The translations under genes were made by a program, and so were the position numbers. Positions 1-5,158 of a DNA stretch of 5,158 bases are shown one piece after another (positions within the stretch are counted from its first letter, which is position 1; each line of letters opens with the position of its first letter). This DNA comes from Nitrospirae bacterium CG2_30_53_67 (lineage in GTDB: Bacteria > CG2-30-53-67): contig MNYV01000114.1 of assembly GCA_001873285.1 (NCBI GenBank), positions 1 through 5,158 on the forward strand, read 5' to 3'. Under the pieces are notes generated by a model that was not told where the DNA came from, did no database searches, and worked only from the letters and a program-made list of their open reading frames with translations.

Positions 1-1035
1 ATCGTAGACCACTTTCTTTTTGGCTTCCAGAAGTTTCTCCAGCTCTTGAATCGAGTCGTCCGTCTTCTTCTGGATCTCATCCACTCTCTTTTCAAAACCG
101 GCGTCCTTGTGGCACATGGAGCAGGCTGCGAGCACATCTTTTTTGTTGTGGCCTTCGCTGATCTTTGCATGGCAGACGTCACAGGTGACGATTTCAACCA
201 TGGGGTCCGCCTCTCCCTTGATCCCCTCCAGGGCCAGTCCGTTGCGGAACTGATTCTCAAATGCGTGGCATTCGATGCATTCTTTTTTGATATCCTTGTG
301 GTGGCACTGCATGCAGATCTCTCTCGACTTCACAATCTCCCCGTGTATCTTTGCATTGGAATGGCATTCTTTGCAGATCAGACCCTGCTTCAAGTGCCGG
401 TCATGGGGGAACTCCACCTGGTAGAAGGTAATGGGCTTGGATGCGAAATCCGCATGACATTTTTCGCAATCCGTTCTATTGATGACATCCGCCTTGGGTA
501 ATGCGGCGATCACTTCGCTTGCGCCCCGCTGGTGGCATTTGGAGCAGGGGGTGGTTTCCTGGTCGTGACACTCTAAGCAGGCCTCCATTCTCGGACGGTT
601 GGTGATGGGGCGTAATTTGTCATGTTTGATGTTGAGGTGACAATCCGTGCACAGGGCGCCTACGTCCTGGAGATGGAACTTGTGGGGCATATAGATATTC
701 ATGACATTATATTTGAAACCCTTCATGTCCGTCTTCTTAAACATCTCTCCGTGGCAGCGGACACAGTTGGGGTTGATGCGCTCAGGATGGGCCGAGAAGT
801 CCTTGGGTATGAAATCCTTGTGATTGGCATGGCATTGAGGACAACGAACGGAATCGGGGTGTATGTTCGAGTGGACCAGGAAGTCCTCGCCCCACATTTT
901 ATAATGGCACGTCATGCAGAAATGCTCATCCGACGTGGTGTAACGTTCCAGTAAAAAAACAAACAGGGTAGGAATACTCAGGAGAATGAGTGTTCCGGCA
1001 GCGACTTTCCAGGGCGAGATCTTTTTGATGTTCAT
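1..1035 (-). CDS. Membrane-anchored multiheme c-type cytochrome, NapC/NirT-like N-terminus, at least 12 hemes (3' end missing)
   Basis: The frame is open from the ATG at 1035 to base 1, giving 345 codons without a stop, so the C-terminus lies outside the window. Residues 9-29 form one hydrophobic segment, which fits an uncleaved anchor with the heme domain in the periplasm. Twelve CXXCH heme sites begin at residues 40, 65, 91, 129, 153, 164, 190, 221, 241, 253, 285 and 305. The first (CMTCH, Met47 three residues after its His) and the second resemble the start of NapC/NirT/NrfH quinol dehydrogenases. Hemes 3-6 and 7-10 look like two copies of one four-heme unit. Residues 314-345 are rich in Lys and Glu and probably helical. 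The start is fixed by GGAGGAGGAAG just upstream and by an ATGA overlap with the chaperone stop, which suggests translational coupling. The likely role is electron transfer between the membrane and periplasm for the operon's molybdoenzyme; this is inferred. The exact family is not recognised. Confidence 0.93.
   Translation of the reverse strand, partial: MNIKKISPWKVAAGTLILLSIPTLFVFLLERYTTSDEHFCMTCHYKMWGEDFLVHSNIHPDSVRCPQCHANHKDFIPKDFSAHPERINPNCVRCHGEMFKKTDMKGFKYNVMNIYMPHKFHLQDVGALCTDCHLNIKHDKLRPITNRPRMEACLECHDQETTPCSKCHQRGASEVIAALPKADVINRTDCEKCHADFASKPITFYQVEFPHDRHLKQGLICKECHSNAKIHGEIVKSREICMQCHHKDIKKECIECHAFENQFRNGLALEGIKGEADPMVEIVTCDVCHAKISEGHNKKDVLAACSMCHKDAGFEKRVDEIQKKTDDSIQELEKLLEAKKKVVYD
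265..483 (-). repeat. Second copy of the internal four-heme unit in the cytochrome (hemes 7-10, residues 185-257)
   Basis: This copy has heme 7 at residue 190 after Ile-Asn-Arg, the motif PHDRHL at 210-215 matching PHKFHL of the first copy, then CXXCH sites at 221, 241 and 253. It is slightly shorter than the first copy, mainly between the first and second heme of the triheme cluster. His211 and His214 are candidate distal heme ligands by analogy with c3/c7 cytochromes. Confidence 0.6.
532..777 (-). repeat. First copy of an internal four-heme unit in the cytochrome (hemes 3-6, residues 87-168)
   Basis: The unit runs: one CXXCH after an Ile-Asn start (heme 3, residue 91), a spacer, a Pro-His-x2-His-Leu motif (residues 117-122), then three CXXCH sites at 129, 153 and 164. 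The same order and similar spacing recur at residues 185-257. The P-H-x2-H-L motif just before a triheme cluster is typical of cytochrome c3/c7 domains, where these His residues are distal heme ligands. The repeat is seen at protein level only; the DNA copies have diverged strongly, so this is an old duplication. Confidence 0.6.
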
Positions 1036-1703
1036 AAAGCGACTTCCTCCTCCACATTCCGGTGTGTGAGTTCTGTCAGTTCGGAGTCAATAAAGGCACG
1101 GGTTAATTGTGAAACCGCTCGATAAAAAGGGTTCTCTGTTTTTTTTATGATCAGATCTGAGAAGAGGGGAATCCACCTCCCTGGATGTTCGGCAAGAAAC
1201 TGACCCTCGATTTGCCGGACACGGTCGGTATGACCGGAGTCTGCGGCCTGGGATTCGAGTTCACTGAGCAGCCGTAAGGCTTCAAGTTCAACTCCGATAT
1301 GGTCGGGGAGAAGCTTAGCCTCTTCGGGTATGAGAATGCCGTATTCATGGTAGAATGTCCGGACCTCTACCGCCGCCTTGCCCTGGAGAGAGGGCTCAAA
1401 ATTCTCCATATCATCCCGGAATCCCCCCACATAAAAGGATTCATAGGGAGGCAGGTGCGACGGGGGGGTGAGGTAAAGACGGGCATATTCAAGAGAAAGC
1501 TCATGGATCAGAGAGGCCTCGTCCTTTTTCAGGATCTCATTCCCAAGTGGAAGGTCAAGGCTCTCAAACAGGGTCAGGACCTCCCGGCTTTTGAGAAAAC
1601 GGATCATCTCGAGGCCGGGCTCTTTCAGAAAGAGGCGGGAGAGGAGCGCATAAACAGCGCTTCTCTTTGCAGCCTCATGATTCGGATGTTCCTTCTTCTT
1701 CAT
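1032..1703 (-). CDS. TorD-family cytoplasmic chaperone for the molybdoenzyme
   Basis: This 223-residue protein has the hallmarks of the TorD/DmsD/NarJ-like chaperones: an all-helical composition, no signal peptide or membrane segment, LEYARLYLTPP (residues 71-81) followed by PPYESFY (85-91), and LPDHIGVELEAL (132-143), which matches the conserved P-D-H-x3-E-L signature. HPGRW (173-177) fits the later conserved H..W region. Such proteins bind the Tat signal peptide and apoenzyme of a specific molybdoenzyme in the cytoplasm and help insert the Mo/W-bisPGD cofactor before export. The gene starts three bases after the stop of the catalytic subunit gene, with its ribosome site inside that gene's last codons. 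Its own stop overlaps the cytochrome start as ATGA. Its client is therefore almost certainly the adjacent oxidoreductase. The length is usual for the family and the protein appears intact. Confidence 0.93.
   Translation of the reverse strand: MKKKEHPNHEAAKRSAVYALLSRLFLKEPGLEMIRFLKSREVLTLFESLDLPLGNEILKKDEASLIHELSLEYARLYLTPPSHLPPYESFYVGGFRDDMENFEPSLQGKAAVEVRTFYHEYGILIPEEAKLLPDHIGVELEALRLLSELESQAADSGHTDRVRQIEGQFLAEHPGRWIPLFSDLIIKKTENPFYRAVSQLTRAFIDSELTELTHRNVEEEVAL
1043..1053 (-). promoter_or_regulatory. Strong ribosome binding site of the cytochrome gene, inside the chaperone gene
   Basis: GGAGGAGGAAG reads leftward and ends seven bases before the ATG at 1035. It lies within the last codons of the chaperone gene, giving them the Glu-Glu-Glu run near that protein's end. 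This site and the ATGA overlap fix the cytochrome start and suggest strong translation of the cytochrome even though it comes last in the visible operon. Confidence 0.8.
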
Positions 1704-1706
1704 ATC

Positions 1707-4061
1707 TTACACCTTGACGATACGTACCTTCGTATCCATCCAGCATTGGCCTCCGCCGAGCGGATCGCTTAATATAGGGATGATCGGTTTGGGGTGGACG
1801 CCGTTTCCTCTGTCCCTCTCTTCTTCGGACCAGAATCCGCCTTTCTCCTTGCCCCACCAGAGGAGGCGGGTATTCGGGTCCTGGCTCTTGAAGGCCTCGG
1901 CCTGGGCAATGCGTCCAAACCCCCAATGGCCGCAACTGTCTCCGACGGCAATGACTTTCGGATGGATCCCCTCAACCACGCGGACGCTGCTCACCATTTC
2001 TCCGGCTTTGGAGATCACTTTGACCCGGTCATAGTTCTTGAGATCCAATTTTCTTGCTGTCATGGAGTTGATGTAAACGGGATTGTCATGAACGATTTCA
2101 GAAAGCCACATGCAGTTGGCCGTCCGGTCGTGGGTGTGCACCATCCATTGATGAATGACCATATAGAGTTCACCTTCTTTAATGGTCTGATGAATCGGGA
2201 TTGGGTCATAGATGGGAAGGGGGTTGAAACCCTGTTCCTCCATCCTTTTTGAATAAATCTCAATCTTACCGGACGGCGTATTGAACCCTTTCTCCTTGAA
2301 CACTTCATACTGCGGTTTTACGGTACTGTCGTAGAATACCCCGTTCTTTTCCAGGTATTCCAGCCCTCCGGCTTCCACAAGAGGTTGGATTGCGGAGATC
2401 CTCTCTTGGAGGTATGCTTCAGTATCAAACTTGAAGTATTTCTCCATCCCTCCCCCGATCCGGCGCGCCATCTCGATCAGGATCCCGGTGATGGGCACGG
2501 ATTCTCCAAGCGGGGGAATCATCGGCTGTCGAAGCGAGATGAAAGGGACCATTTCGAAGGCCGGGGGCGCCTCCAGTTCCATCCGCTCTATGTAAGTCGC
2601 TGCGGGCAGAATCAAATCCGCAAGGGCCGCAGACTCGGTCATGAAGGAATCAATGCAGACATAGTACGGGATCAGATCCTCGTCCTTGAGGATCAGCTCC
2701 ATCATCTTCCCTTCGGGGTTGGAATAGACCGGATTGTGCTGGTAGGTCATATAGATTTTTATGCGTTGTCGTCCTTCTTTGATCATCGGGAGTACCCTGT
2801 GATGCAGTTCAGTCATGGCAAGAGGGTAATTGGATAATCCGTTCAGCTTGCTCTTCATTCTGGGGACGGGCGGGGCCGGTTCGGGTTCCTTGAAGGTATA
2901 AAATTTCGGAAGGCAGTACCCTCCCTTGATGTCCACGTTGCCGGTGATGATATTCAGCAGGGCCACGCACCTTTCAGAGTAGACGCCGTTCCAGTGTTTG
3001 GTCACCCCTCCGGTGGAAATCGTGGTGGACGGTTTTGATGAGGCGAACTCCTTTGCGATACGGCGGATTTCCTTGGCCGGCACGCCGCTGATTTTTTCGG
3101 CAAGCTCAGGAGTGTAATCCTTCAGGTGCTGCTTGAGCGCATCCGGAGAATAGTTGGTCCACGTGTTGATAAAGGAGCGGTCCTCCATCCCTTCTTCCAT
3201 GATGACGTGGCACATGGCCAGGGCCACCAGACCGTCCGTTCCGGGAATGATCGGGTGCCATTCGTCGCTCCTGCCGGAGGTCTGGGAGACACGCACGTCG
3301 AAAGTGACCATTTTGGCTTTGGGGCGGAGAAGGTCGGCGCTGAATCGGCGGATGGAGCGGGCCTCCACCATCCTCTGTACAAAGCTGGTCCTCAGGTAAT
3401 GGGCTTCAAAGGGATTGGAGCCGAAGATCAGCATATATTCCGAGTTGGCCACGTCCGGTATTTCAAAATCGGCGCCCCAGGTCAGTTGCTGTGCCAACTG
3501 TTTGTTGGGCCCGCCTAAGGGATGATTCACGAAGGCGTTGGGTGAACCGAAGGCATGGACGAAGCGCCGGGTGAAATCTTGCGTGGTGATGTCCCGGTCG
3601 CTTTGAAATACGAATTCTTCCTGATGTCCGGAAGCCATGACCGGTTTCATACGGTCGGCGACTTCATGGTATGCCTCTTCCCAGGTGATCCTCTGCCATT
3701 TTCCTTCCCCCCTCGGACCCACCCGTTTCATGGGATAGAGGATCCGGTCCGGGTCATAGACCAGATTGAGGCCTGCCTGTCCCTTGGCGCACATCCTGCC
3801 TCGGCTGTTGGGGTGTTCCGGATTGGGGCCGATTTTAATCAGAGTTCCGTAGGCATTGAAGCCGTAATTCCCGCAGCGGGCGTAGCAGTTCAGGCAGGTG
3901 CTCGGAATGGGCTTCAAATGCTTTCCCGTGGTCCTCGAGACCTCAGACCCTCCCATGATCAGCTCCATGGCATCGGATTGGGTTTGAAGGAGCTTGTTCA
4001 CACCAAGGGATGCGGCCCCGACGGCGCCGAGTTGCAGAAAGGTTCGCCTGCTGAATTTCAT
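1707..4061 (-). CDS. Tat-exported molybdopterin oxidoreductase catalytic subunit, PsrA/PhsA/TtrA-like, DMSO reductase superfamily
   Basis: A 784-residue protein starting with a twin-arginine signal (SRRTFLQ at 4-10, hydrophobic stretch 11-25; no clear AxA cleavage site), so it is exported folded. Cys56, Cys59, Cys63 and Cys91 (C-x2-C-x3-C-x27-C) form the N-terminal [4Fe-4S] site of the superfamily. The body follows the molybdopterin oxidoreductase fold: WEEAYHEVADRM (127-138), SEYMLIFGSNPFEA (207-220), TESAALADLILPAATYIER (475-493). The C-terminal dinucleotide-binding domain begins near 630 and includes GHWGFGR (711-717). Length and context fit polysulfide, thiosulfate, tetrathionate or arsenate reductase relatives; the substrate cannot be assigned. 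An unusual feature is that the expected metal-ligand position (residue 183 or 184) is glycine, where relatives have Cys. Residues 390-400 form a proline-rich loop. The partners are the NrfD subunit upstream and the TorD chaperone downstream. The start is supported by AGGAGGAA five bases upstream. Confidence 0.93.
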   Translation of the reverse strand: MKFSRRTFLQLGAVGAASLGVNKLLQTQSDAMELIMGGSEVSRTTGKHLKPIPSTCLNCYARCGNYGFNAYGTLIKIGPNPEHPNSRGRMCAKGQAGLNLVYDPDRILYPMKRVGPRGEGKWQRITWEEAYHEVADRMKPVMASGHQEEFVFQSDRDITTQDFTRRFVHAFGSPNAFVNHPLGGPNKQLAQQLTWGADFEIPDVANSEYMLIFGSNPFEAHYLRTSFVQRMVEARSIRRFSADLLRPKAKMVTFDVRVSQTSGRSDEWHPIIPGTDGLVALAMCHVIMEEGMEDRSFINTWTNYSPDALKQHLKDYTPELAEKISGVPAKEIRRIAKEFASSKPSTTISTGGVTKHWNGVYSERCVALLNIITGNVDIKGGYCLPKFYTFKEPEPAPPVPRMKSKLNGLSNYPLAMTELHHRVLPMIKEGRQRIKIYMTYQHNPVYSNPEGKMMELILKDEDLIPYYVCIDSFMTESAALADLILPAATYIERMELEAPPAFEMVPFISLRQPMIPPLGESVPITGILIEMARRIGGGMEKYFKFDTEAYLQERISAIQPLVEAGGLEYLEKNGVFYDSTVKPQYEVFKEKGFNTPSGKIEIYSKRMEEQGFNPLPIYDPIPIHQTIKEGELYMVIHQWMVHTHDRTANCMWLSEIVHDNPVYINSMTARKLDLKNYDRVKVISKAGEMVSSVRVVEGIHPKVIAVGDSCGHWGFGRIAQAEAFKSQDPNTRLLWWGKEKGGFWSEEERDRGNGVHPKPIIPILSDPLGGGQCWMDTKVRIVKV
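1710..1715 (-). promoter_or_regulatory. Ribosome binding site of the chaperone gene, inside the end of the catalytic subunit gene
   Basis: AAGGTG lies six bases before the chaperone ATG at 1703 and overlaps the last codons of the catalytic subunit gene. It matches the Shine-Dalgarno consensus less well than the GGAGG sites of the other three genes. This fits lower chaperone output than structural subunits, with translation helped by ribosomes finishing the upstream gene. Confidence 0.6.
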
Positions 4062-4126: not shown

Positions 4127-5062
4127 TCAATGGAGCGGGACGCTTTGTCCGCCGACGACCACGGAATAACGCATGGCATAGATTCCGATCATGACCAGTA
4201 CCGAGGCGATAGTCAGACCCTTGAGACTGTTTGCCGTTTTCGGATAAAAGACCATGAAGAGCGGGATGACGCTCCCGGCCAGGATCTCGATCCCCAGGAA
4301 ATCCAGGGAATACCGTCCCCATAACAGGAGTTCGGCCGCGTGCCAGGCCTCTTTGCTGGAAGTGAGGAGGACCAGCACGGCATTCAAAATCAGGAAGAGG
4401 TCGAAGATGATGGTCCCGCCGAGGAACTTGCCCAGTCCATAGATCAGTTTGCGGTCGGCCTCAACCTCATCCTCTGTTTTTCCTTTAGAGAAATAGACAT
4501 TGCGTATAATGGCCGCCAGGATCATCAGGGCGATACCGGAGACCATGGCCGAGACGATAAAGAGGGTCGGCATCAGGGCGGTGTTCCAGAGCGCCCGGCC
4601 TTTGCCGAGGGCGATGATAAAACCGGTATACCCGTGAACCGAGATGGCCAGAGGAATCCCTATAATAGCAAAAACCTTGGACATCTTGATGTTCCCGGTA
4701 TAGACGAAAAAGGCGTAAATGATCGCCGAGATGGGATAAGCGGTCAGGAGCATCACACCGTAGGTGATGGGAGATTTCGGATTGATGTAACCTGGGAGAT
4801 AGGTCATCAGGTGCCAGGCGCGAAGCGGCTGGGCCATTTCAACCAAAAGGTTCATGGGGGCGAGGATCAGACAAAGCGGCGCGACCACGGCTCCGATCTT
4901 TCCAAGGGGTTTATATTCGGTTTTCCCCCCAAGAATGGCGATGACCGATACCACGAAGGATCCGGCGCTGAGCCCCGTGAGATAAAAGTACTGGGCGAGA
5001 AGGATCCCCAGTGGGATCTGGTGGGGAGAGTTATAGAGCAGATTGACATTGCTGGGATCCAT
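4127..5062 (-). CDS. NrfD/PsrC-family quinone-interacting integral membrane subunit
   Basis: This 311-residue, very hydrophobic protein has about eight likely membrane segments (roughly residues 18-44, 52-76, 97-120, 127-151, 160-187, 207-233, 254-273 and 280-300). Family-like landmarks are AQYFYLTGLSAGSF (23-36), QPLRAWHL followed by NPKSPITYGV (78-103), an acidic residue in DFLGIEILAGSVIP (254-267), and the C-terminal RYSVVVGGQ (298-306). NrfD/PsrC proteins bind quinone or quinol in the membrane and pass electrons to or from a ferredoxin-like subunit docked on the outer face. Some members may also move protons. The gene precedes the catalytic subunit gene with a 65-base gap and follows an upstream gene by 26 bases, as in PsrABC-like operons. 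GGAGGAAT eight bases upstream supports this start. It is named from the family only and is not the NrfD of nitrite reduction specifically. It is complete, with normal length. Confidence 0.93.
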   Translation of the reverse strand: MDPSNVNLLYNSPHQIPLGILLAQYFYLTGLSAGSFVVSVIAILGGKTEYKPLGKIGAVVAPLCLILAPMNLLVEMAQPLRAWHLMTYLPGYINPKSPITYGVMLLTAYPISAIIYAFFVYTGNIKMSKVFAIIGIPLAISVHGYTGFIIALGKGRALWNTALMPTLFIVSAMVSGIALMILAAIIRNVYFSKGKTEDEVEADRKLIYGLGKFLGGTIIFDLFLILNAVLVLLTSSKEAWHAAELLLWGRYSLDFLGIEILAGSVIPLFMVFYPKTANSLKGLTIASVLVMIGIYAMRYSVVVGGQSVPLH

Positions 5063-5088: not shown

Positions 5089-5158
5089 TCAATAAGGTTC
5101 TTCAAAATGGATAAAGTTAATATCTACCCCGCTCGTCGAGTCCATGGCATCATAATCG
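5089..5158 (-). CDS. C-terminal end of upstream gene, probably the ferredoxin-like [4Fe-4S] subunit (5' part outside window)
   Basis: Reading leftward from 5157, 22 sense codons end in TGA at 5091-5089; the peptide starts DYDAMDSTSG and ends FEEPY. This frame is open to the window edge, and the stop lies 26 bases before the NrfD start, as expected for operon neighbours. No Cys cluster or other domain lies in this short tail, so the product cannot be identified from sequence. In PsrABC/TtrABC/DmsABC-like systems the gene next to the NrfD-type subunit commonly encodes the four-cluster ferredoxin subunit linking the catalytic subunit to the membrane. No other such gene is seen here, so that is the best guess. 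Confidence 0.5.
   Translation of the reverse strand, partial: DYDAMDSTSGVDINFIHFEEPY

Follow-up and report, generated by a model that had tools for sequence, protein, structure and literature searches.

The window that was analysed is a stretch of 5,158 nucleotides from Nitrospirae bacterium CG2_30_53_67 (contig MNYV01000114.1). All of its genes lie on the reverse strand; they encode the last part of a ferredoxin subunit, an NrfD-type subunit, a MopB protein, a TorD-type protein and a multiheme cytochrome (Table 1). By a crude count the NrfD subunit has about eight transmembrane segments. The chaperone scores 63 bits against the NCBIfam model of TorD, below the cut-off of that model, and full-length homologues of the truncated cytochrome contain 12 CXXCH motifs. 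The C-terminus of the ferredoxin subunit, DYDAMDSTSGVDINFIHFEEPY, matches the FeS protein of locus L013, and in the gene order of L013 and L093 a Qrc-type set (multiheme cytochrome, ligand-free MopB, FeS and NrfD) is encoded together.

Table 1. Genes and features of the window
Feature	Position	Strand	Remarks
Multiheme c-type cytochrome	1..1035	(-)	N-terminal membrane anchor, NrfH/NapC-like start; cut by window edge
TorD/NarJ-type maturation chaperone	1032..1703	(-)	Pfam Nitrate_red_del, 74 bits
MopB protein without Cys ligand	1707..4061	(-)	784 aa; Tat signal RRTFLQ
[4Fe-4S] cysteines of MopB	C56, C59, C63, C91
Codon GGC, Gly183, at the Mo/W-ligand position	3513..3515	(-)	From profile alignments
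Arg156-Asp157, loop on metal-facing side	3591..3596	(-)
NrfD/PsrC-like membrane quinone subunit	4127..5062	(-)	311 aa; Pfam NrfD, 141 bits
4x[4Fe-4S] ferredoxin subunit, 3' end only	5089..5158	(-)	Remainder beyond window

Judged by its domains and predicted fold, the MopB protein is a member of the MopB/DMSO reductase superfamily. The Pfam domains Molybdopterin (PF00384), Molybdop_Fe4S4 (PF04879) and Molydop_binding (PF01568) all score over their cut-offs, and the AF2 model is confident over the full length (pLDDT 87.3, pTM 0.88), with block means of about 92-93 around the ligand segment. In a comparison of the whole-length model, ArrA (Z 40.1), PsrA (Z 36.5) and AioA (Z about 33) share the fold; PsrA (2vpw, VIA Z 36.5) is the best sequence match. 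The best NCBIfam model is PhsA (354.8 bits, cut-off 694), and QrcB (188 bits, cut-off 440) and AioA (20.9 bits, cut-off 359) were also compared. An identity as PhsA, AioA or QrcB was rejected, as every score lies far below the model cut-off; the same holds for the models of QrcA and QrcD.

The ligand position

The segment FGSPNAFVNHPLGGPNKQLA occupies residues 171-190, residue 184 being encoded by GGG, and the protein is devoid of cysteine between C91 and C284. In HMMER alignments (phmmer and profile), Gly183 stands opposite the ligand Cys of PsrA ('VSLC'), ArrA ('SSVC') and acetylene hydratase ('YMC'). It also faces the X in 'RLX' of F420-FDH, presumably a Sec. The distance between GSPN and the ligand column, 7 residues, equals that in ArrA and acetylene hydratase. 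These alignments agree with an earlier note on this DNA, which had placed the ligand position on Gly183 or Gly184 and had seen no Cys between residues 92 and 283. Judging from them, the Cys ligand to Mo or W that is a trait of PsrA and PhsA is missing from the window protein, which has Gly183 instead. The trait of AioA and IdrA, a metal without a protein ligand, is shared at the level of sequence only.

As the earlier note had looked for, the glycine is conserved in the ligand column of close homologues, and neither Cys, Ser, Asp nor His occupies that column of the window protein in the profile alignment. Gly, not Cys, is kept in L035 (93% identity), L036 (78%), L037 (75%) and L074 (79% over 215 aa); the homologues at 93, 78 and 75% carry HP(L/V)GG, their Gly codons being GGG, GGA and GGC. 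Because Gly is found in all close homologues checked and in distant ones, with varying codons, neither chance nor a read error accounts for it. GGC is indeed one base from TGC, and the earlier note had considered a point change or sequencing error at this codon; the homologues, the codons and the dN/dS values led to its rejection. Since the Gly recurs in independent assemblies with codons GGC, GGG and GGA, while two other members have Thr, the frames are open throughout and dN/dS is 0.06-0.09 (0.059 against L035, 0.087 against L036), it is extremely improbable that an error, a recent mutation or a decaying gene explains Gly183, and a pseudogene was likewise refuted. His180 was also considered as a replacement ligand and discarded, being unconserved beyond the window lineage.

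A branch without the ligand cysteine

Homologues were searched in the window's own genome and about 390 different genomes, and repeat samples drew nearly the same set; the viral contigs searched contained no relatives. In a maximum-likelihood tree of 34 rows, 11 sequences without the ligand Cys form one branch (support 97/92) adjoining clades that keep it. At the ligand column nine of them have Gly and two, L065 and L066, have Thr. The more distant members are L064 (59% identity to the window protein), L039 (58%), L038 (56%), L066 and L065 (about 50%), L041 (42%) and L042 (40%). The branch spans six classes, namely that of the window, G194/G049, G157/G295, G094, G065 and G038; since G065 and G038 are each alone in their phylum among the sampled genomes, and all the other classes lie outside the window's phylum, at least four phyla are represented. 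Judged from the aligned sequences, the ligand Cys is replaced by Gly or Thr throughout one branch, which takes in a groundwater bacterium together with relatives from several further phyla.

The Cys-type sister clades (L043, L073, L077, L068, L044, L069, L045, L046, L070, L075 and L015) are 35-41% identical to the window protein over most of its length and likewise have FeS, TorD and often NrfD genes. They differ in keeping the ligand Cys and Arg351, and mostly have no adjoining multiheme cytochrome gene. One example, L077, is the Azoarcus sp. KH32C plasmid protein WP_015451713.1; on this plasmid, pAZKH, it is accompanied by FeS, NrfD and TorD genes and lies close to a gene for arsenite efflux and to a PhnD-like sensor set.

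Two further sequences lack the Cys and group elsewhere, so that their ligand losses look independent of the branch described above. L067 has Ser (AGC) and groups with Cys-type rows; its fork with L073 is weak (92/40), but the set of four rows that includes three Cys rows has strong support (100/99). Elsewhere in the superfamily Ser serves as a metal ligand, and L067 therefore need not be ligand-free. L071 has Gly (GGA) and is placed inside the other Cys clade.

Several loci may be mentioned in their own right. L067 (L103:7004-9415, genome G177) lies beside a gene for a five-heme NapC-like cytochrome, and the same genome encodes L073 (L105:6988-9582), a related MopB with Cys and no such cytochrome. 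In L071 (L110:6851-9313, genome G342), Arg351 and Glu184 are retained and a TorD gene is present, but there is no multiheme cytochrome in the vicinity. The window's own genome encodes two paralogues: L003 (G000:C122:17906-19930), which is QrcB-like (322 bits, cut-off 440) and carries Ser (TCG) in the ligand column, and the PhsA-like L002/L080 (G000:C31) with a Cys ligand (646 bits, PhsA cut-off 694).

Gene neighbours and pocket residues

FeS and NrfD genes lie beside all members of the branch that have enough flank. A gene for a multiheme cytochrome (at least four CXXCH) is found on the same strand within 4.5 kb in 11 of the 11 members and at L067, against 2 of 11 other relatives. This context makes it a serious alternative, one that the earlier note did not consider, that the protein acts in electron transfer in the manner of Qrc or ACIII. 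It would then be a MopB protein without metal or cofactor and without catalysis, convergent with QrcB and ActB, serving as a scaffold and as a [4Fe-4S] relay that joins the FeS-NrfD quinone module to the multiheme cytochrome; we regard this as plausible, with somewhat less than an even chance. QrcB and ActB are published cases of MopB proteins without cofactor in multiheme-NrfD complexes (PMC6303296; PMC5928083). The loci L096, L097, L099 and L100, where genes for a Rieske protein and a split cytochrome b lie immediately upstream, point in the same direction. The models of the Qrc subunits, as seen above, argue against it.

At these four loci (L096:10892-14023, L097:12121-15110, L099 and L100), the Rieske, cytochrome b6-like and cytochrome b C-terminal genes and the multiheme cytochrome gene lie upstream of FeS-NrfD-MopB, so that two quinone-reactive modules occur within one cluster. 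Beside the G065 member, L102:10597-14636 encodes two proteins: one of 485 aa that matches no Pfam family, and a membrane protein of 651 aa with a DsrK/TfrB-like FeS domain.

A TorD gene adjoins nine of the ten Cys-type loci checked as well as L071. Within the branch it is found in the window lineage only, where it speaks against a cofactor-less role; the other members with enough flank have no TorD near the gene, as would suit such a role. Since independent losses number only two or three, these multiheme and TorD associations are suggestive rather than statistical. That multiheme context strictly tracks the loss of the Cys was not upheld: the Cys-type L075 (11 hemes) and L046 (four CXXCH) also have a multiheme neighbour, and L071, with Gly, has none.

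The four cluster cysteines are invariant in all 11 aligned sequences (in this alignment L067 takes the place of L035, whose identity to the window protein is 93%). An intact [4Fe-4S] motif argues against a role such as that of ActB, whose domain B1 has no prosthetic group (PMC5928083). Polar columns, chosen as conserved in 17 Cys-type rows and thus a proxy for cofactor contacts rather than a measurement of them, are kept to 92% in the window lineage, 90% in the other members without Cys and 86% in the Cys outgroup; QrcB-like paralogues keep 58% of them, the branch itself being closer than the QrcB-like rows to the rows used for the choice. Nearly all members retain D255, D276, T317, R493, R511, E655 and N660, which most or all QrcB-like rows have lost. 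Columns lost in the QrcB-like rows are kept to 81% in the branch (ligand column excluded), and those that the QrcB-like rows keep to 92%. Short of proof, this retention of residues favours a cofactor that is still bound.

The substrate side is different. Ten of the 11 members have Gly where the Cys clades have Arg351, and Tyr154 and His153 are replaced, changes that would also fit a protein without catalysis. As these residues of the Cys-type relatives are gone, the substrate is probably not theirs.

Another side chain might also have taken over the metal, the likeliest candidate being the carboxylate of Asp/Glu157, which adjoins Arg156. This loop presumably corresponds to E. coli FdhH Arg110, going by the F420-FDH alignment. 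Column 157 is acidic (D/E) in all 11 members, where the Cys clades mostly have Asn or Met, and column 156 is Arg or Lys throughout; furthermore, Asn186 is specific to the branch (10 of 11) and recurs in the independent loss L067. Such a relocated ligand is nevertheless unlikely: the loop differs in L041 and L042, which makes the alignment there less sure, and near residue 157 L067 has Tyr and L071 has Asp or Val-type residues.

A possible open metal site and its meaning

The known systems each resemble the window protein in part. With PsrA and PhsA of the CISM family it shares the fold, the [4Fe-4S] motif, the Tat signal and the ferredoxin and NrfD-type partners; it differs by Gly in place of the ligand Cys, by the extra multiheme cytochrome and by its score (355 of 694 bits). 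AioA and IdrA also lack an amino-acid ligand to Mo (PMC10100899, PMC3758308) and share the fold, but AioA is a separate branch, and the window has no [3Fe-4S]/Rieske AioAB architecture and keeps the [4Fe-4S] Cys. Qrc (QrcABCD) likewise combines a multiheme cytochrome, a ligand-free MopB, FeS and NrfD subunits (PMC6303296); in contrast to it, the window protein keeps the [4Fe-4S] motif and the conserved polar residues and has TorD. ACIII has a Mo-free MopB-like domain beside a multiheme cytochrome and NrfD-like subunits (PMC5928083), but ActB is a MopB-FeS fusion, whereas the window has separate genes and keeps the cluster cysteines.

From this evidence we favour, over a metal-free relay, an open-site Mo/W-bisPGD subunit of a quinone-multiheme complex, a reading to which we would assign an even chance. 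The retained pocket, the cluster motif and the chaperone favour it for the window protein, as do the ligand alignment, the support of the branch, the low dN/dS and the confident full-length fold. The cytochrome context reminiscent of Qrc and ACIII, the losses on the substrate side and a ligand column that varies between Gly and Thr, as a non-catalytic site would, favour the relay; the missing TorD near other members and the poorer retention of columns lost in QrcB-like rows also count against an open site.

The open-site subunit would belong to a periplasmic respiratory complex composed of the multiheme cytochrome c, the 4x[4Fe-4S] ferredoxin subunit, the NrfD-type quinone subunit and a MopB that has permanently lost its protein ligand to Mo or W. 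MopB would still bind Mo- or W-bisPGD, loaded by the TorD of the operon, and the metal would be held by the two dithiolenes alone together with oxo or water, as in arsenite oxidase. Electrons would be exchanged between menaquinone at NrfD and the open metal site by way of the ferredoxin subunit and the [4Fe-4S] cluster of MopB, the multiheme cytochrome being a second electron port. AioA and IdrA, which bind Mo-bisPGD without a protein ligand, are the published precedent (PMC10100899; PMC3758308).

More broadly, we tentatively propose, as a possibility a little short of evenly balanced, that these proteins are Mo/W-bisPGD respiratory enzymes with open coordination (or a relocated ligand) and form a second natural class of this kind, distinct from AioA/IdrA and derived from Cys-type PsrA/PhsA-like ancestors. 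They would act as menaquinone-multiheme cytochrome oxidoreductases in several phyla, the ligand having been lost at least two more times among close relatives.

The amino-acid ligand to Mo or W is used for classifying and interpreting the superfamily. In a survey of 2023, AioA/IdrA were the sole ligand-free holoenzymes and each sequence was checked for the 'correct' ligand of its family (PMC10100899); a branch without Cys could for this reason be passed over. No description of a ligand-free clade in this MopB branch was found in the open-access literature searched, which is weak evidence of absence. If the cofactor is bound, these proteins and their close Cys-type relatives would provide a comparison set for testing the role of the ligand. 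If there is no cofactor, the branch would represent another independent conversion of a MopB enzyme to an electron-transfer subunit beside multiheme cytochromes, seen at an intermediate stage in which the ligand is gone and the pocket and the cluster motif are still present.
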